Source: Bacteroidales bacterium
GTDB lineage: Bacteria > Bacteroidota > Bacteroidia > Bacteroidales > JAIOZK01
Direction: 5' to 3'
Length of the DNA: 44,880 nt
Assembly: GCA_021740625.1 (NCBI GenBank)
Contig: JAIOZK010000030.1
Coordinates: forward strand, 1 to 44,880
A program made the position numbers and the translations under genes. Shown here in pieces: positions 32,615-41,201 of the stretch. Below the pieces are notes generated by a model. That model was not told where the DNA came from and ran no database searches. It worked only from the letters and a program-made list of their open reading frames with translations. The number at the start of each line of letters is the position of its first letter. Within the stretch, counting starts at the first letter, position 1.

Positions 32615-35353
32615 TTATTGAATAATAACCTTCAGGGTTTCCGTTTCCATGCTTGTTTTCTGAACCCGGACAAAATACATTCCTTTTGATAAATCCCCTA
32701 TGTATAAAGGGTTTTCATCGCTTTCCATAATTTTCCTGCCATCCATTGCGTACAGGCTGATATGCAAATTGCCATAGTACTGGCCAGGAGAGGATATGTT
32801 GATAAAATTACTGGCAGGGTTTGGATATATGATGGTGTTTGTTTGGGCTGGCCGATGTTCATTATTCCCGGTATGGACCGGTGATTGAAAGATCTTGACC
32901 ATGCCTCCGTTCACAATTCCATAATTTCTTTCTACCGGAATACCGACTACTAGGTCTTTGTAACCATTCACATTAAAATCACCCATACACGCATTGGTGC
33001 CATATTTCAGTTCATTATTCAATACCATTACCGCCTGATTATGACTGCTGTCACCATCAAAAATCAGCATCCTTTCCGAATTATAATCACCGGCAAGAAT
33101 GCTGGTTTTACCTTTCGCCAGAAAATCTGGTAGAAATTGGATATAGGTTACAGCAATATGGAGTGAAGTGTCATAAAAAATTTCATCGTATATGCTGTCA
33201 AGTTCCGTACCCCCGTAAAATAAATAAATGGTATCAGTTGAATAGAGCATGAAATCCGCCTGGTTATCACCATTGAAATCGCGGCATGTTCTGGAAGCCT
33301 GGGATGCAAAACTAATATGATCTTTATCCGGATTTGGCAGGATCAGGTCAAACTGATCATCTGCTTCAGGTCCGCCTAGATAAACCAGATAACGGCCATT
33401 TACAACAGTGCGGTCAAAAATCATAAAATCATCATACTGATCTGCATTGATATCACCGCATTTGATAAACTGATTATCTGACGTCCAATAAGGGAGATCA
33501 TAGAGATCATCTATGATCATATCGGGTTCTTCATTGATCATGTCACCACCAAAATACAGGTAGGTCTTGTTTCTGTGGAGCCTGGCCCTTGATCCACCGA
33601 TAAGGAAATCATTGTATCCATCTGCATTGTAATCCCCAATGATTCTGATATTTCTTCCAAACTCTATATTATTGACCAGGTCATCAAGTACATAATCCGC
33701 ATCAGAATAATCGAGCGCGGGAGGCAAATCCTCTTTCCCAAGAAATACAAAAGCCCGGTTGTACGTATTCATAATTTTTCCAAGGTATGCAGATGTTCCA
33801 TATGCTGTACTGTTGCCGATGATAAAATCGATGTATCCGTCATTGTTGATATCCCCGGCATCCCAGTCGAGAGACTTATTCCTGCCATCCTGTGGAAGTA
33901 GTATTTTTACATCAGGTTTATCCTTTAAAACATCGCTGCCAAAAAAGATGTCAAGATAACAACCCTGGTCGGCCATTACCCCGAAATCGGGATATCCATC
34001 TTTATTCATATCTCCGATGTTTCTAACCTTTTGTCCGTATCCCAGTTCTTCATAAGATTCTTTCAGTGGTTGCACCAGGAGAAGGGGATCGGTGAAGTCG
34101 GGTGTATCGCTGCCACGGATGATAGCTGTGCCTACCTGTTCGTATTGCAAAGAACTGTCGAATGACCAGTATCTGAGAAACAGGTCAGGAATGCTATCCT
34201 GGTCGTAGTTAAACACAGGAACCTTATTGATGGAACCATATGCATAAATTCCTTTCCCTGGTGGCAGCATCATGCAATTGTCTCCGGTATAATGCTTTTG
34301 AATATTAAATCCGCTATCAGCAATGCTTTCCCTGCCCATAAAAAACATCATTGTATCTGCGTGGCATTTGGTGTAGAGGTCGTCACATCCATCATTGTTA
34401 ATATCGCCTGCCAGGAGAATCTTTGCAAAATGTTCAAGCGGGTAAATTACCTCTTCATCTTCAAAATAGGGGGGTGTTGATTTCCCGAACAGTATTCTGA
34501 GGATGTAGGCTTTATCAAAGTATTCCGAGATTACGATGTCAGGATTACCATCCCCATTCATATCTGCTAAAGATCCAGAGAAAGGAACAATTTTTCTGTT
34601 CTTAAATACCATTTCCATGCTGTTGGTATCCAGTACGAACCATGCTACATCGTCTGAGTTAGAATTATTCTGTCTTCTGTGGATGGCAAGTTCTTTTACA
34701 CCATCCGAATCATAATCATAGTAAAGAAATTTTCCGGGTTCATGATCAATAAGAGCCCAGGGAGGTTCAAAATGAATGGCTTCAGGATCGTCACTACAAA
34801 AAAGCATGAGATCACGGCTATATGATTTCCCTAAAAAGAATTCCGATTTCCCGTCCCCGGTAATATCCTGCGCATAATACAGGTAGCTGTAATCATCCGG
34901 GAAATCAATAAGCATTGAATCATCTGAAATCCCTTCCGGAGCACCAAAATAGATCGTTTTATTCGCAATGTTGAGCATATCATCGTATCCGTCACCATCG
35001 AAATCTTTGATTCCCTGGATATTGCTGTTGTAGAAAACCAGGGCATTTTCCGGATGATCGATATCCGTTATGATCACTGATTTATATACACCGTCATGGG
35101 GGTCTTCGGTTCTTTCATCACTGACATATTCATTAAATACGAAATCAGTAAATCCATCGCCATTGATATCTCCCAGGGCGTTCGGATAGGTTAATGTTGT
35201 ATTAACAGCTGGATTTCCCGTTATTTTGAAGGGGAAAATTTCTTTGATCGGGTAAATCGTATCGGGTACATTGTTTTGCCCTGATAAATAAAATGTGAAA
35301 AATAACGATAGGATAACTGTTAAAGCTTTTGAAAAAAAATGGGTGATTAACAT
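32615..35353 (-). CDS. Large secreted FG-GAP/VCBS-repeat protein with T9SS sorting domain
   Basis: A 912-residue secreted protein with a signal peptide ending LSGQ. At least nine FG-GAP/VCBS-type calcium-loop motifs are visible: DINGDGFTDF, DFDGDGYDDM, DMNGDGNPDI, DINNDGCDDL, DMNKDGYPDF, DINNDGYIDF, DYNADGYNDF, DINADQYDDF and DFNGDNQADF. These form integrin-like beta-propeller blades that bind calcium. The C-terminus is a T9SS type A sorting domain (YPNPASNFINISS, LYIGDLSKGMYFVRVQ, VIIQ). It is probably exported to the cell surface or medium for adhesion or binding. No catalytic domain was recognised. Single gene, convergent with nothing and divergent from the DUF3109 gene. Confidence 0.93.
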   Translation of the reverse strand: MLITHFFSKALTVILSLFFTFYLSGQNNVPDTIYPIKEIFPFKITGNPAVNTTLTYPNALGDINGDGFTDFVFNEYVSDERTEDPHDGVYKSVIITDIDHPENALVFYNSNIQGIKDFDGDGYDDMLNIANKTIYFGAPEGISDDSMLIDFPDDYSYLYYAQDITGDGKSEFFLGKSYSRDLMLFCSDDPEAIHFEPPWALIDHEPGKFLYYDYDSDGVKELAIHRRQNNSNSDDVAWFVLDTNSMEMVFKNRKIVPFSGSLADMNGDGNPDIVISEYFDKAYILRILFGKSTPPYFEDEEVIYPLEHFAKILLAGDINNDGCDDLYTKCHADTMMFFMGRESIADSGFNIQKHYTGDNCMMLPPGKGIYAYGSINKVPVFNYDQDSIPDLFLRYWSFDSSLQYEQVGTAIIRGSDTPDFTDPLLLVQPLKESYEELGYGQKVRNIGDMNKDGYPDFGVMADQGCYLDIFFGSDVLKDKPDVKILLPQDGRNKSLDWDAGDINNDGYIDFIIGNSTAYGTSAYLGKIMNTYNRAFVFLGKEDLPPALDYSDADYVLDDLVNNIEFGRNIRIIGDYNADGYNDFLIGGSRARLHRNKTYLYFGGDMINEEPDMIIDDLYDLPYWTSDNQFIKCGDINADQYDDFMIFDRTVVNGRYLVYLGGPEADDQFDLILPNPDKDHISFASQASRTCRDFNGDNQADFMLYSTDTIYLFYGGTELDSIYDEIFYDTSLHIAVTYIQFLPDFLAKGKTSILAGDYNSERMLIFDGDSSHNQAVMVLNNELKYGTNACMGDFNVNGYKDLVVGIPVERNYGIVNGGMVKIFQSPVHTGNNEHRPAQTNTIIYPNPASNFINISSPGQYYGNLHISLYAMDGRKIMESDENPLYIGDLSKGMYFVRVQKTSMETETLKVIIQ

Positions 35354-35495: not shown

Positions 35496-36074
35496 ATGAT
35501 AGTACTGGACGACAAGATCATATCCAATGAGATAAAAGAAATATGCTTTGCCTGCGACCTGCGCAAATGCAAGGGTGCCTGCTGTGTGGACGGAGATGCC
35601 GGGGCACCCCTGGAAGAAGCGGAAATTTCGATATTGGAGGATGATATTGAGTATATAAAACCATTCATGACAGAGGCAGGCAGAAGGGAAGTTGAAAAGA
35701 ACGGTGTTTTTGATTATGATGCGGATGGGAAATTTGTGACTCCATTAGTAGATGGTGGTGCTTGTGCCTTCGTTAATTTTGATGAGGAGGGGATTGCATT
35801 TTGCACCATCGAGCAAGCTTTTCTGGATAATAAAACAGATTTCCAGAAACCTTTGTCCTGTCATTTATACCCGATCCGCATTTCACAACTCCGGGATGGG
35901 GGAGAAGCCCTCAATTATCATAAATGGCATATTTGCAAACCGGCCCTCAAACGGGGCAGCAGAGAAAAATATGCATTGAAAAAATTCGTGAAAACGGCCC
36001 TGATCAGGAAATATGGGAATGGTTGGTACGAGCGGTTTTTGAAGATTTTAGAAGATGACCTTATAAAGAAATAA
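35496..36074 (+). CDS. DUF3109-family cysteine-rich protein
   Basis: A 192-residue cytoplasmic protein of the DUF3109 family, widespread in Bacteroidota. It begins with a cysteine cluster (FACDLRKCKGACCVDGDAG) and has further cysteines in GACAF, FCTIEQAF, LSCHLYPIRI and HICKPAL. This is the distribution of a YkgJ/CxxCxxxCC-like zinc or iron-sulfur binding protein. The true cofactor and function are not known. It starts from a likely leaderless promoter and is convergent with ferritin across an AT-rich repeat region. Confidence 0.88.
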   Translation: MIVLDDKIISNEIKEICFACDLRKCKGACCVDGDAGAPLEEAEISILEDDIEYIKPFMTEAGRREVEKNGVFDYDADGKFVTPLVDGGACAFVNFDEEGIAFCTIEQAFLDNKTDFQKPLSCHLYPIRISQLRDGGEALNYHKWHICKPALKRGSREKYALKKFVKTALIRKYGNGWYERFLKILEDDLIKK

Positions 36075-36938: not shown

Positions 36939-37394
36939 TCATTCGGGTTTTTCCATGATGTGTATTTCAAGGTCCTGAAAAATCCTGCCTACATTCTTTG
37001 CAGGGGGATTATCGATTGGAAAAGCTGTTAGTATGCCATTTGTTTTTTTAAGTTTTTGGGTATATTCTGGAATTTGTTCTTCCCTGGGAAATTCATAAAA
37101 CATGAAAAAATAATCAGCCTGCCGGTAAAGCGGGATCAGAAATCCTTCCTGACTGCGATTCTGAAGAAGACAGATAAATCCGCTTGAATCTTTTACAGCA
37201 TGCAGGAAAACTGTATGTTTGATCGTTTGATCGATGGAAGCGGTATGTGATGTAAAATCCCGGATCCTTTTAAGATTGGTTTGCAGACTCTGGTTGATCC
37301 TGAAAGCCAGTTTGTAGCTTTTCAATGTTGAGGACAAGCCAATGATCCTGAATTCGGGATCATGGTCGACTTCCAGTTTTAATTTCTTTGCCAT
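36939..37394 (-). CDS. IPExxxVDY-family protein (degenerate signature)
   Basis: A 151-residue cytoplasmic protein of unknown function. It begins KLKLEVDHDPEFRIIGLSS and continues YKLAFRINQSL, the standard start of the Bacteroidota IPExxxVDY family, which is usually found near acpP, fabF, rnc and pyruvate kinase. The signature itself is altered here: LIPLYRQADYFF, with IP kept, the glutamate replaced and VDY read as ADY. The distinctive context (acpP-fabF-rnc upstream) supports the call. A radical SAM gene lies 36 bases upstream, so the two may be cotranscribed. Molecular role unknown. Confidence 0.75.
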   Translation of the reverse strand: MAKKLKLEVDHDPEFRIIGLSSTLKSYKLAFRINQSLQTNLKRIRDFTSHTASIDQTIKHTVFLHAVKDSSGFICLLQNRSQEGFLIPLYRQADYFFMFYEFPREEQIPEYTQKLKKTNGILTAFPIDNPPAKNVGRIFQDLEIHIMEKPE

Positions 37395-37430: not shown

Positions 37431-38852
37431 TCAGCGAAGATACTCTTTTTCCCATATTTCGCTGGTTAGTTTCTCCAGCTTCTGGTCATAACGGATCATC
37501 TTTTCATAATAATCTTTGTTCATGATGCTTGCTGCTTCCTGGTTTTCAGGAACTGCATCTTTCGTCAGGATGTTTTCCCTGAAATCCTTGAAATGATCCC
37601 GGATAGAGCAGGGCATTAACCAGTTACCAGGTTGGGATTTGTTATTCAGACCATATTCTTTTTGCCAGTTGTTGCCCCTTTTCATGAATTCGGAATGCAG
37701 GGCATCACCAATACTCTTTCCCTTGCTGTACAGTTCAAAAACATTGTCTACATAAAATGGAACAAATACACAGGGCATGATATTACCATTCCAGTCGATA
37801 TAGATGTAACCCCTGTTGGCACCGTAAGCAATACAACCATGGGTAAGCACGCCACTGTTCCAGAAATCTGCAATGCTGTAGTTTTTTTCTTTCAGCATCC
37901 GCTCCCACATCCTGTACATTTTAACACGCTCATCGGGTTGAACTACCAGATCAAATACTTCATTTCCTTTTCCAATCGGCATAAACTGGAATTGCCACAT
38001 ATAGGTTGCACCTTGCTCCTCGAAATAATAATCATAGAAAGCCTCTTCCAGGAGAACATCCACATTTTCACTGGTCGCGGTGACCGAAACACCAAAAGGC
38101 ACCCCTGCGTTCCGTAGATTTTCAAAACCTTTCATGATTTTCTGATGAACACCCTTGCCCCTTCTTTTATCAGTGTGCTCTTTGTATCCTTCAACAGAAA
38201 TGGCAGGGGTAACGTTTCCAAGTTCTTCCAGTCTTTTGCTCAGTTCTTTCGTAAAAAAGGTGCCATTGGTGTATACCAGGAAAAACATATCATTGTATTT
38301 CTCAAAAATATCAATCAGGGTTTTTCCATTGTCGGAATACATAAATGGTTCACCTCCGCTGATGGTAATGAACCTGCCGTTAAAACTATCATGCACCTCT
38401 TCAACGATCTTATCGACGGTTTCAAAAGGGATTGAGGGTGCTGTTGCTGCCCTGGAGCCTGCATAGCATCCGGTGCAATTCAAATTACATTTTTGAGTAG
38501 GCGACAATACAATGAACATGGGTGGATCCATCCCGTACTTTTCCACGAAAGTAGAATTGTCGCGGGCGGGATCTTTGTCTTCAACCATCGAAACTTCGAG
38601 GCTTGATATAAAGGCACCTGTTTTTTTTATGAAGTTGTTTGAAATGTAATTTTTATCGATATTCCTTTTAATAGAATACAGCAAAGCCGAGAGATAGTCG
38701 TATTTTTTTTGCTGCACAGCGGTCAGGTTTTCGCTGTCGGATTCGACAATGCTTTTGTGGATTCTTTTGTCGATGGATTTTGTTATCAGGTTTCTAACAA
38801 TTTTAGAATGTGTATAAGCATCCAATGCCAGATTTTCAATGCGCGTTTTCAT
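37431..38852 (-). CDS. Radical SAM enzyme with SPASM/twitch-like C-terminus, role unknown
   Basis: A 473-residue iron-sulfur enzyme. Residues 1-110 form a charged, mostly helical extension with no motif known to me. The core then starts with the [4Fe-4S] motif C122-NLN-C126-TG-C129 in SPTQKCNLNCTGCYAGS. The SAM-binding GGEP is at 166-169, and ISVEGYKEHTDKRRG at about 218-232 matches the fourth strand. C-terminal cysteines C340, C361 (DWNGNIMPC) and C415 (WLMPCSI) are spaced like a reduced SPASM or twitch auxiliary cluster. Such enzymes modify peptides or proteins or act as sulfatase-type maturases. No small precursor peptide is seen nearby. It lies between rnc and the IPExxxVDY gene and has a plausible promoter of its own. 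Confidence 0.87.
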   Translation of the reverse strand: MKTRIENLALDAYTHSKIVRNLITKSIDKRIHKSIVESDSENLTAVQQKKYDYLSALLYSIKRNIDKNYISNNFIKKTGAFISSLEVSMVEDKDPARDNSTFVEKYGMDPPMFIVLSPTQKCNLNCTGCYAGSRAATAPSIPFETVDKIVEEVHDSFNGRFITISGGEPFMYSDNGKTLIDIFEKYNDMFFLVYTNGTFFTKELSKRLEELGNVTPAISVEGYKEHTDKRRGKGVHQKIMKGFENLRNAGVPFGVSVTATSENVDVLLEEAFYDYYFEEQGATYMWQFQFMPIGKGNEVFDLVVQPDERVKMYRMWERMLKEKNYSIADFWNSGVLTHGCIAYGANRGYIYIDWNGNIMPCVFVPFYVDNVFELYSKGKSIGDALHSEFMKRGNNWQKEYGLNNKSQPGNWLMPCSIRDHFKDFRENILTKDAVPENQEAASIMNKDYYEKMIRYDQKLEKLTSEIWEKEYLR

Positions 38853-38918
38853 AGGATTTTTATTTTTTCCAATTCAACATGTATTAAAATCAGTCATTAT
38901 CAGGAACTAAGACAAGCC

Positions 38919-38950
38919 TAAAATTAAGAAAAAATTGTAATAAAAACAAA
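38919..38950 (-). promoter_or_regulatory. Candidate promoter of the radical SAM gene
   Basis: On the minus strand TTTG (38950-38947), a 20-base spacer, then TAATTTTA (38926-38919), one mismatch from TAnnTTTG. It lies in the 101-base gap after rnc. Confidence 0.4.
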
Positions 38951-38953
38951 CGA

Positions 38954-39688
38954 TCAGGACGACTCGTTCAGAATGGAGTTACAGGCTTTTTCGGAAGCGA
39001 TCTTTTCGGCACCCTTGATGGAATAGTCTCTTGCCTGGCTGATGGGCTTTTTGTCGACCAGGATCTGTATCACGTATTGTTTATTATACCCTTCACCAAC
39101 TTCATCAATCACGTTGAATTCAATCTCTTTTTTCTCTTTCTGGCTCCACTCAATGAGTTTGCTTTTAAAATTGTTTTCCTGCTTTTCGATTTCATCGATG
39201 TCGAGGTGCAGGTTGATGATCCTTTTGATGATAATACGCCTGGTGAAATTATAGCCTTTATCGAGGTACATGGCGCCTATCAATGCCTCAAAGGCATCAC
39301 CATTGATAGATTTACAGAGATTCCGGGTATCTTTCTCACTTTCAAGAAATCTATCCAGTCCCATTTTTTTGGAAAGTTTGTTCAGTTGTGAACGGTTTAC
39401 AATTTTGCTCCTCATTTCGGTCAGGAAGCCTTCATCCTTGTAGGGAAATTTCTTGAACAGATAATCGGCGATGGCGGAGCTAAGCACTGCATCCCCCAGG
39501 TATTCCAGTCGCTCATTGCTCACCCTAACCCCTTTCACTACTTCTTTGGCCGCCGATTTATGCCTGAAGGCAAGTTTATATAAAAAAATATTTCCGGGAT
39601 AATAACCGAAAATATTTTTAATAGCATGAAATAATTGTTTATCAGAAGAAAATATTGCTTTAACCGTACCCGATAATGCTATTCTCAA
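38954..39688 (-). CDS. rnc: Ribonuclease III
   Basis: A 244-residue double-strand-specific endoribonuclease that processes rRNA precursors and structured mRNAs. The signature NERLEYLGDAVLS gives E59, E62 and D66. The second acidic pair is D131 and E134 in NGDAFEALIGAMYLDKGY. The C-terminal double-stranded RNA binding domain spans about 170-242 (FKSKLIEWSQKEKKEIEF, KGAEKIASEKACNSIL). About 35 N-terminal residues precede the usual start of the RNase III domain. It lies five bases after fabF and is almost certainly in the acpP-fabF-rnc operon. Confidence 0.96.
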   Translation of the reverse strand: MRIALSGTVKAIFSSDKQLFHAIKNIFGYYPGNIFLYKLAFRHKSAAKEVVKGVRVSNERLEYLGDAVLSSAIADYLFKKFPYKDEGFLTEMRSKIVNRSQLNKLSKKMGLDRFLESEKDTRNLCKSINGDAFEALIGAMYLDKGYNFTRRIIIKRIINLHLDIDEIEKQENNFKSKLIEWSQKEKKEIEFNVIDEVGEGYNKQYVIQILVDKKPISQARDYSIKGAEKIASEKACNSILNESS

Positions 39689-39693
39689 AACAA

Positions 39694-40947
39694 TTAATCA
39701 CTAAATTTCTTAAAAACAATGGAAGCATTGTGTCCACCAAAACCAAAGGTATTTGTCAATCCGTAATTGATAACCCTTTTTACTGCTTTGTGATATGTAA
39801 AATTCAAGTTGTTATCGATTTCAGGATCGTCGGTAAAATGATTGATTGTTGGCGGAACGATATCATTTTTCACGGCCAGTACCGTGGCTATGGCTTCAAT
39901 TGCACCGGCAGCTCCCAGGAGGTGACCAGTCATTGATTTTGTAGAATTGATATTGATCTTGTAGGCATGTTCGCCAAACAGGCTGACGATCGCTTTTGGT
40001 TCTGCGATATCGCCAACCGGTGTAGAAGTACCATGCGTATTGATATGATCAATATCCTCGGGTTTGATCCCGGCATCTTCGAGGGCATATTTCATACAAT
40101 TGTGTGCGCCGAGACCTTCCGGATGCGGGGCGGTCATATGATGTCCGTCGGCCGAAAGTCCGCTGCCTGCAACTTCTGCATAGATTCTTGCACCTCTAGC
40201 CCTGGCGTGTTCAAGTTCTTCAAAGACCAATCCGCAACCTCCTTCACCCAGCACAAAACCATCTCTGTCCTTATCGAAAGGTCTTGAGCCGGTTTTGGGA
40301 TCATCGTTGCGGGTTGATATCGCGTGCATTGCGTTGAATCCGCCAATTCCACCAATGGTGATGGCAGCTTCGGAACCACCGGTTACAAAGAGATTGGCTT
40401 TGCCCAGCCTGATCAGGTTCAGTGCGTCTGAAAGTGAGTTTGCTGAAGAGGCACATGCAGAAACCGTGGTGTAATTCGGACCTCTTAATCCATGTTTGAT
40501 GGAAATATGACCAGCAGCTATATCAGCGATCATTTTTGGTATAAAGAACGGATTGAAACGGGGTGTACCATCGCCTTCAGTAAAAGCCATGATTTCCTTT
40601 TCGAAGGTTGATAAGCCACCGATCCCTGAACCCCAGATGACGCCGGCCTTGTCAAGATCAATTTTTTCTAGATCCAGTCCTGCATCCGCAATGGCCTGAT
40701 CAGCGGCAATAATGGCATATTGCGCATACCGATCGTATTTTCTGACTTCTTTGCGGTCGAAATAATCTTTGGGATCATATCCCTTTAATTCACATGCAAA
40801 CTGGGTTTTGAATTTTGAGGCGTCAAAATGAGTGATCATGTTGGCACCACTCACCCCATTGACCATGCCATCCCATGTTTCTTGGGTGGTTTTGCCCAGT
40901 GGGGTAAGTGCGCCGAGTCCTGTAACAACAACACGCTTTAATTCCAT
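39694..40947 (-). CDS. fabF: Beta-ketoacyl-ACP synthase II
   Basis: The condensing enzyme of fatty-acid elongation; it joins malonyl-ACP to acyl-ACP in the cytoplasm. This 417-residue protein has the thiolase-fold catalytic triad: C165 in TTVSACASSAN, H305 in HINTHGTSTPVGD and H342 in STKSMTGHLLGAAGA. The start MELKRVVVTGLGALTPLG is typical. It follows acpP by 17 bases and precedes rnc by 5, the standard Bacteroidota order, so the enzyme and its carrier protein are made from one transcript. Confidence 0.97.
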   Translation of the reverse strand: MELKRVVVTGLGALTPLGKTTQETWDGMVNGVSGANMITHFDASKFKTQFACELKGYDPKDYFDRKEVRKYDRYAQYAIIAADQAIADAGLDLEKIDLDKAGVIWGSGIGGLSTFEKEIMAFTEGDGTPRFNPFFIPKMIADIAAGHISIKHGLRGPNYTTVSACASSANSLSDALNLIRLGKANLFVTGGSEAAITIGGIGGFNAMHAISTRNDDPKTGSRPFDKDRDGFVLGEGGCGLVFEELEHARARGARIYAEVAGSGLSADGHHMTAPHPEGLGAHNCMKYALEDAGIKPEDIDHINTHGTSTPVGDIAEPKAIVSLFGEHAYKININSTKSMTGHLLGAAGAIEAIATVLAVKNDIVPPTINHFTDDPEIDNNLNFTYHKAVKRVINYGLTNTFGFGGHNASIVFKKFSD

Positions 40948-40964
40948 GTAAGGATTCGTTTTAG

Positions 40965-41201
40965 CTATTTAGCGTTCTCTTCGATGTATTTGATTGCTTC
41001 GCCAACTGTGCCAATTTTTTCAGCCTGGTCGTCGGGGATGGCAATATTGAATTCTTTTTCGAATTCCATGATCAACTCAACGGTGTCGAGTGAGTCGGCA
41101 CCCAAATCATTTGTAAAACTTGCTTCTGGAGTAACTTCTCCTTCATCTACACCAAGCTTATCAACAATAATAGCTTTTACTCTGGTTGCAATGTCAGACA
41201 T
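40965..41201 (-). CDS. acpP: Acyl carrier protein
   Basis: A 78-residue acidic four-helix protein that carries growing acyl chains on a phosphopantetheine arm. The attachment serine is S37 in the DSL motif of [19 protein letters not shown]. The start [18 protein letters not shown] and the length are standard. It is the first gene of the acpP-fabF-rnc unit. On the minus strand a T-rich leader of about 170 bases separates it from the divergent purN; it contains TTTG and CTTTG stretches but no clean TAnnTTTG box. Confidence 0.97.

Follow-up and report, generated by a model that had tools for sequence, protein, structure and literature searches.

An intact open reading frame for a radical SAM protein lies between rnc and the gene of an IPExxxVDY family protein in the stretch of Bacteroidales DNA analysed here (44,880 nucleotides, hereafter the window), which raises the questions of what kind of enzyme it encodes, how the gene came to this place and what the enzyme acts on. 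The features under discussion are collected in Table 1.

Table 1. Coordinates of the radical SAM gene, its conserved parts and its surroundings in the window.
Feature	Position	Strand	Basis or remark
Radical SAM/twitch enzyme gene, 473 aa	37431..38852	-	ORF list, Pfam, orthologues, AlphaFold2 model
N-terminal domain, residues 1-110, helices only to residue 106, cysteine-free	38523..38852	-	AlphaFold2
Radical SAM cluster motif CNLNCTGC (C122, C126, C129)	38466..38489	-	Invariant in 43/43 rows
C340, first auxiliary-cluster cysteine	37833..37835	-	Invariant in 43/43 rows
C361, second auxiliary-cluster cysteine (C340-x15-G356-x4-C361)	37770..37772	-	C361 and G356 invariant in 43/43 rows
C415 to D419, third auxiliary cysteine and acidic residue	37596..37610	-	C415 in 43/43 rows
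IPExxxVDY family protein, 36 bp downstream	36939..37394	-	NF033205, 69.3 bits (cut-off 40)
Gap between rnc and radical SAM gene, 101 bp, AT-rich	38853..38953	-	
rnc, ribonuclease III, ORF from TTG start, upstream neighbour	38954..39688	-	ORF and Pfam
fabF (39694-40947) and acpP (40965-41201), upstream	39694..41201	-	ORFs; names by sequence likeness

Cysteine anatomy and predicted structure

Since full-length orthologues at 49-68% identity exist, the gene is not a chance reading frame. Its product has six cysteines in total, three of which form the superfamily motif C122-x3-C126-x2-C129, while C340, C361 and C415, already listed in an earlier note made from the sequence alone, are indeed the only cysteines outside the radical SAM (RS) motif. 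All six are invariant in the 43 aligned homologues, an alignment from which rows shorter than 430 aa were excluded and in which three plasmid proteins were included. Position 419 is acidic in every row as well (D in 41, E in 2), and D419, four residues past C415, is a candidate fourth cluster ligand. Because every member has three auxiliary cysteines, one auxiliary cluster can be present at most, and if a [4Fe-4S] cluster forms, one of its irons is left without a conserved cysteine. The radical SAM domain starts at residue 117, with approximately 110 residues ahead of it, and the first RS cysteine falls at residues 116-130 in 36 of the 43 rows. Both the reduced auxiliary-cluster cysteine set and the N-terminal extension of about 110 residues described previously were therefore confirmed.

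The Pfam model Radical_SAM (PF04055) matches the protein clearly (E 1.6e-23, 84.1 bits against a cut-off of 29.5), and SPASM (PF13186) scores slightly below its cut-off (19.5 versus 21.5 bits). A full SPASM domain has seven cysteines for two auxiliary clusters, and the three C-terminal cysteines of the window protein fall short of this number. The signature of the twitch domain is C-x(9-15)-G-x4-C, a gap and a further C; it is present here as C340-x15-G356-x4-C361, a gap and C415, with the four residues invariant throughout the alignment. Among the best 25 of 71 matched NCBIfam models, none comes near its cut-off, the highest score being that of NirJ2 (77.4 bits versus 500); AhbD reaches 74.2 (versus 500) and AhbC 67.2 (versus 650), and maturase models such as WgkB (66.2 versus 650), the mycofactocin maturase (65.4 versus 265) and PapB (61.7 versus 340) also remain below theirs. 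This lends support to the previous proposal that the function is an undescribed one, and in the open-licence literature we recognised no description of this radical SAM family.

A structure predicted by AlphaFold2 on 13 sequences (pLDDT 83.8, pTM 0.87) assigns the protein to the radical SAM/SPASM-twitch fold class. In the model, the N-terminal domain consists of helices at residues 2-15, 17-37, 44-66, 72-90 and 100-106, and nearly identical helices were obtained when it was folded by itself (pLDDT 75.8). A comparison of this domain with the PDB gave no match at E <= 0.001 (best Z 5.5 among 79 chains), and residues 1-78 are barely covered by structural matches of the whole protein. Residues 1-105 carry a net positive charge in all 34 rows considered. 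A possible amphipathic membrane helix in the N-terminal part was also weighed and rejected (p 0.68 for the window protein versus shuffled sequences, p < 0.05 in one of 34 rows).

The best fold matches by Z, all within 23.5-24.3, are SkfB (24.3, rmsd 3.5 over 293 residues), anSMEcpe (24.0) and SuiB, followed by viperin (near 20) and Tes (17.1 over 254 residues), whereas SuiB comes first when Foldseek E-values are ranked. The closest solved structure by sequence is again the peptide maturase SkfB (6efn, E 1.4e-10). Thus, peptide enzymes lead both fold rankings with Tes lower, which counts against a lipid substrate and would agree with the modification of a peptide or protein residue, as by SkfB, SuiB and the anaerobic sulfatase maturases, with the substrate encoded elsewhere. 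We nevertheless consider such a role unlikely. A survey of small ORFs (18-110 aa) up to 1.2 kb from 62 family loci revealed no conserved precursor peptide, in line with what the earlier note had remarked for the window; in the 12 largest groups of such ORFs, only a phasin-like gene recurs and looks real, and the other groups unite near relatives or depend on a weak third match. The gaps flanking the window gene measure 36 and 101 bp, and no maturase model reaches its cut-off among the best 25. The RiPP recognition element contains strands, whereas the N-terminal domain is strand-free in the models. The enzyme therefore differs from SkfB in having no precursor gene in sight, no strand-containing N-terminal domain and only 20% identity to it, despite the shared fold. 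A RiPP system was rejected on the small-ORF evidence, although a precursor might be encoded elsewhere.

Genomic address, distribution and transfer

The IPExxxVDY gene was detected in 17 of 31 genomes, in 15 of them above the family cut-off. Eleven of these 17 genes directly adjoin rnc, two (in the window and its sister species) are split from it by the radical SAM gene, and four have no rnc in the stretch. Since rnc and the IPExxxVDY gene are adjacent in 11 of the 15 other relatives (10 of 13 when the sub-cut-off entries L142 and L143 are left out) and the radical SAM gene is found there only in the window's genus, it looks inserted, and the simplest history is an insertion into a conserved gene pair in the ancestor of the genus. 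In the genome G015, the orthologue lies on a separate contig and the rnc-IPExxxVDY pair is intact. The IPExxxVDY gene is probably not part of the enzyme's system.

Several expectations attached to this address were not sustained. Across 45 homologues, the gene lies beside rnc/IPExxxVDY in two, both from the window's genus, which refutes an association with rnc, IPExxxVDY and fabF as a trait of the family. The idea that the gene takes the place of pyruvate kinase fails because it lies on the rnc side of the IPExxxVDY gene and pyk is known from the other side; a pyk match adjoins the IPExxxVDY gene in only 2 of the 17 genomes examined, a set that includes the window's (approximately 1.5 kb searched per side). 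Co-occurrence with an altered IPExxxVDY protein likewise found no support. The literal IPE...VDY motif is absent from all 17 ORFs, and its absence in the window copy is consequently not special. A ferritin link, also proposed, was rejected: a ferritin gene lies near the radical SAM gene in the window (Pfam), but no match turned up within the 19 kb that surround the radical SAM gene in the sister species (L046), nor in L047 and L037.

The two ORFs upstream of rnc are, judging by their sequences, presumably fabF and acpP, which belong to fatty-acid synthesis. The suggested link to lipids is possible through the neighbours of orthologues (see below) and not through acpP and fabF. It is conceivable, if somewhat unlikely, that the window copy is functionally unrelated to acpP-fabF and was merely inserted at a tolerant site, a reading that concerns the address only and is compatible with any other reading. 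The occurrence of the gene at the rnc-IPExxxVDY site in a single genus and the inter-phylum transfer indicated by the tree would fit this idea, but both species of the genus keep the gene intact at the same site, with 68% identity and all six cysteines, and its retention in both suggests selection on the gene. A simple scan of the 101-bp gap, for site types other than Bacteroidota promoters, revealed no promoter-like or terminator-like site on the minus strand, and a scan of L135 for Bacteroidota-like promoter boxes over part of the gap ahead of the gene led nowhere. Also nearby in the window are a DUF3109 protein (35496-36074, 228 bits in Pfam) and a large FG-GAP protein bearing a sorting tail for type IX secretion (32615-35353, Por_Secre_tail).

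Close homologues occur in 5 of 60 related genomes, the window's included (G000, G001 with 68% identity, G041 with 57%, G015 with 50% and G051 with a fragment at 59% identity). A contig scan returned 12 loci, 8 of them from the CSMAG series; the MAGs concerned bear the labels Bacteroidales/Bacteroidetes/Bacteroidota, Aminicenantes, Phycisphaerae and Neomarinimicrobiota. With the family profile A1 (E <= 1e-80, each count including the starting genome), carriers amount to 2 of 345 genomes across the phylum and 15 of 295 in the order. The corresponding counts are 14 of 199 for the phylum to which the Aminicenantes genome belongs, 9 of 248 for the class that includes the Phycisphaerae genome and 10 of 199 for the Marinisomatota genome's phylum. 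Such low counts across groups indicate that the family is rare and patchy.

In the 43-row tree, the window copy groups with that of the sister species (support 100/100), and the Bacteroidota label needs seven changes, six of which are forced by well-supported branches. Read from the tree, this pattern is one of transfer between phyla, or of some misbinning of MAG contigs. The same two explanations apply to a Marinisomatota gene (L044, 3039-4475) that groups with a Bacteroidales gene (L083, 4648-6084) at 84.5% identity, whose likeness reflects either recent inter-phylum transfer or a misbinned contig. Phage and plasmid records yielded distant homologues only. Homologues with 34-35% identity and the same six conserved cysteines are present near IS elements on IncF-type plasmids of Klebsiella pneumoniae (L144, 9773-11152) and Escherichia albertii (L145, 2254-3633), and a comparison of the latter gene with 20,395 E. 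coli records brought up no near match. The Methanosphaera plasmid pNP174 carries another distant homologue (L146, 5221-6933, 30% identity) directly after a TetR gene, so that the pairing with TetR reaches an archaeon. In addition, a single contig carries two family copies at close distance in L037 (7944-9368 and 12195-13658) and likewise in L043 (1-1158 and 2645-4054).

Recurrent neighbours and candidate substrates

A census of 45 homologues, from which the duplicates L034, L085, L114 and L115 (copies of L046, L040, L036 and L035, respectively) had been dropped, recorded within 6 kb of the gene TetR in 18 cases, phasin and UbiB in 8 each, patatin in 7, MMPL and LolA-like in 4 each and rnc/IPExxxVDY in the 2 mentioned above. 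Within 1.5 kb, a TetR gene lies at 20 of 62 family loci, as opposed to none of the 28 other radical SAM loci used as controls (p 2e-4), these 28 representing 27 independent places as L002 and L004 overlap on one contig, and the family loci being mutually non-independent. A lipid gene (patatin, UbiB, phasin, MMPL, LolA-like, Acyltransf_2, DegV or PgpA, classes that were picked after the first 45 homologues had been viewed) is found within the same distance at 22 of 62 family loci versus none of the controls (p 1e-4), and either kind of gene at 34 of 62 versus none. Because 26 of the 62 loci have a flank shorter than 1.4 kb on one side or both, all these neighbour counts are lower bounds. Neither TetR nor a lipid gene of the scanned classes is present within 1.5 kb at 28 loci, and no such lipid gene at 40, with the window included in both numbers; FakA, scanned in the same range, was found at none of the 62. 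In the one held-out check, on 17 of the 18 later loci (L154 is absent from the 62, its reading frame not having been picked up), TetR was near in 7 and a lipid gene in 11. The earlier note had named random positions of orthologues as an outcome that would speak against it; the orthologues do lie away from rnc/IPExxxVDY, but their positions are not random, as the 34 loci with a TetR or lipid gene illustrate.

In whole genomes, a TetR gene lies within 1.5 kb of the radical SAM gene in 12 of 25 (0.23 expected) and in none of the other 13. The adjacent TetR is the sole one of the genome at the search threshold in G458, G405 and G641, and in G639 the sole TetR lies on a different contig from the gene. 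Several layouts recur, including TetR-radical SAM (L083, L086, L088, L090, L091, L092, L118 and L120), TetR-radical SAM-phasin-UbiB (L040, L121, L150 and L152), and clusters of MMPL, radical SAM and LolA-like genes joined variously by acyltransferase, patatin, FakA-like and DegV genes (L041, L084, L087 and L116). Pfam searches of 30 proteins, selected almost entirely from among the neighbours, found ABC1, phasin, TetR, LolA_like, MMPL, patatin, Acyltransf_2 and FakA-like domains, and DegV, PgpA, MlaE, undecaprenyl-PP synthase and CDP-alcohol phosphatidyltransferase were confirmed in the same set. Side by side, a phasin-like gene and a UbiB/ABC1 kinase gene recur near family members (L040 9559-11560, L112 6640-8646, L121 2623-4643, L150 2-1453), in genomes of Bacteroidales and Marinisomatota as well as in those from the Aminicenantes phylum and the Phycisphaerae class. 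Other genes near the family are one with a class I/II aminotransferase fold (L161, 3396-4388) and one of 376 aa without a Pfam match (L155, 203-1333); judged by likeness, they perhaps belong to sphingolipid synthesis.

These neighbours bear on two further substrates. An isoprenoid lipid, either a quinone or a polyprenol, might be suggested by the UbiB/ABC1 genes near 9 of the 62 loci, an undecaprenyl-PP synthase in L163 and, in L038, a PgpA neighbour that carries a fused BacA domain. The membrane lipids of archaea are isoprenoid, and the archaeal plasmid homologue would be in line with such a substrate. However, patatin, Acyltransf_2, FakA-like, DegV, MMPL and LolA-like neighbours indicate acyl lipids, and since UbiB occurs with the phasin-like gene in 8 of 8 entries that have UbiB within 6 kb, the two genes may form a unit that moves independently. 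In our judgement, an isoprenoid substrate is quite unlikely.

It is quite unlikely that the enzyme acts on a tetrapyrrole or serves iron/heme handling, like NirJ, AhbC and AhbD, with TetR-MMPL-LolA-like as an iron/heme response operon, yet some observations fit. The nearest curated NCBIfam models are NirJ2 and the heme b synthase AhbD, both matched by 14 of 14 members of profile set A1, and the window's ferritin gene would suit a role in iron metabolism. In oral Bacteroidetes, MMPL/LolA-like/TetR operons are reported to respond to a shortage of iron, with induction in P. gingivalis and P. intermedia, which is consistent with this role (PMC10434189). On the other hand, the scores are far below the cut-offs and come mostly from the radical SAM core, the ferritin gene is unmatched around the gene in the sister species, the 30 chosen proteins (not a full census) include no heme-synthesis gene by Pfam, and the neighbours patatin, phasin/UbiB, acyltransferase, DegV and PgpA are at odds with such a role.

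A proposed lipid-modifying enzyme

We propose, with a probability of about 0.5, that the gene encodes a horizontally spread radical SAM enzyme whose substrate is most likely a membrane lipid or the acyl chain of one; the enzyme probably alters membrane lipids rather than peptides. This grade is not higher because SkfB is the nearest structure, 40 of 62 loci are without a lipid gene of the scanned classes within 1.5 kb, an archaeal homologue exists and iron/heme handling has some support. Archaea are not known to have fatty-acyl phospholipids, and the Methanosphaera homologue (30%) accordingly rules out a fatty acid as the substrate common to the entire superfamily. DUF2229, which we take as a marker for PlsA/Ger ether-lipid enzymes, was rejected as a co-occurring trait, being absent in the window's genome and present in 9 of 22 carriers versus 6 of 22 non-carriers (2/12 versus 3/12 within the order and 7/10 versus 3/10 within the Aminicenantes phylum).

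In the proposed mechanism, the RS cluster would cleave SAM to give a 5'-deoxyadenosyl radical, which would take a hydrogen from an unactivated lipid carbon, and the three-cysteine auxiliary cluster would accept the substrate radical or its electron. The outcome would be a two-electron oxidation that yields, for instance, a C-C cross-link or a double bond. The lipid may be held by the helical N-terminal domain, the adjacent TetR regulator may set expression in many lineages, and in the window's genus the gene would have been inserted behind acpP-fabF-rnc. Cross-linking chemistry is less likely than the lipid substrate itself, and falls below even odds. Doubtful, though worth stating, is the more specific idea of a new lineage of lipid-stitching radical SAM enzymes, which would be bacterial, spread between phyla, form C-C bonds between or within the acyl chains of ester phospholipids, and use a single site-differentiated three-cysteine auxiliary cluster and an acyl-sensing TetR switch.

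Chemical precedent for the lipid reading is provided by the lipid radical SAM enzymes Tes and Gms, and by analogy the enzyme may work like one of them. As described, Gms has an all-helical N-terminal domain, RS cysteines including C123 and C127, and two auxiliary clusters of four cysteines each, and joins two chains of one lipid (PMC11186832); reported homologues come from Acidobacteria, Planctomycetes and candidate phyla (PMC11868695). The window protein resembles this description of Gms in its helical N-terminal domain, its C122/C126 versus C123/C127 and its C-terminal auxiliary-cluster domain, and differs from it in having three auxiliary cysteines and one cluster at most. Tes forms sp3 C-C bonds on lipids with the substrate carbon bonding to a [4Fe-4S] cluster sulfur, its C-terminal cluster has a labile methionine and its N-terminus holds a rubredoxin-like iron and a [4Fe-4S] cluster (PMC9433317). 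With Tes (GDGT-MAS; PDB 7tol, 7tom) the enzyme shares the radical SAM core and a C-terminal auxiliary cluster (sequence E 6.1e-5 over residues 116-255), but no cysteine precedes C122, and the metal sites described at the Tes N-terminus are therefore missing. The three auxiliary cysteines and the D or E at position 419 in 43 of 43 rows would be compatible with a labile non-cysteine ligand like that of the C-terminal cluster of Tes. The absence of a second auxiliary cluster and of N-terminal metal sites is the reason why we file the family under neither Gms nor Tes. Mss hits are patchy across bacterial phyla including Bacteroidota and Planctomycetota (PMC11868695), and Mss models are said to retain the Tes architecture (PMC13274423). 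Compared by this description, the present family is like Mss in being bacterial and patchy in overlapping phyla; passages of PMC8788747 and PMC8941075 yielded neither an Mss sequence nor a testable motif. For ladderane lipids, radical SAM genes located inside clusters for fatty-acid synthesis have been proposed (PMC2649909).

The gene appears to encode an iron-sulfur radical enzyme of a kind not described before, which has spread among several bacterial phyla. The reading of the window is corrected in that the gene is a mobile addition, standing outside the conserved rnc/IPExxxVDY pair. Bacterial membrane-spanning and cross-linked lipids serve as climate markers whose enzymes and producers are only partly known, and this family, with its fixed cysteine anatomy and its frequent regulator and lipid-gene neighbours, provides concrete, testable genes in Bacteroidota, Aminicenantes-related bacteria, Phycisphaerae and Marinisomatota.
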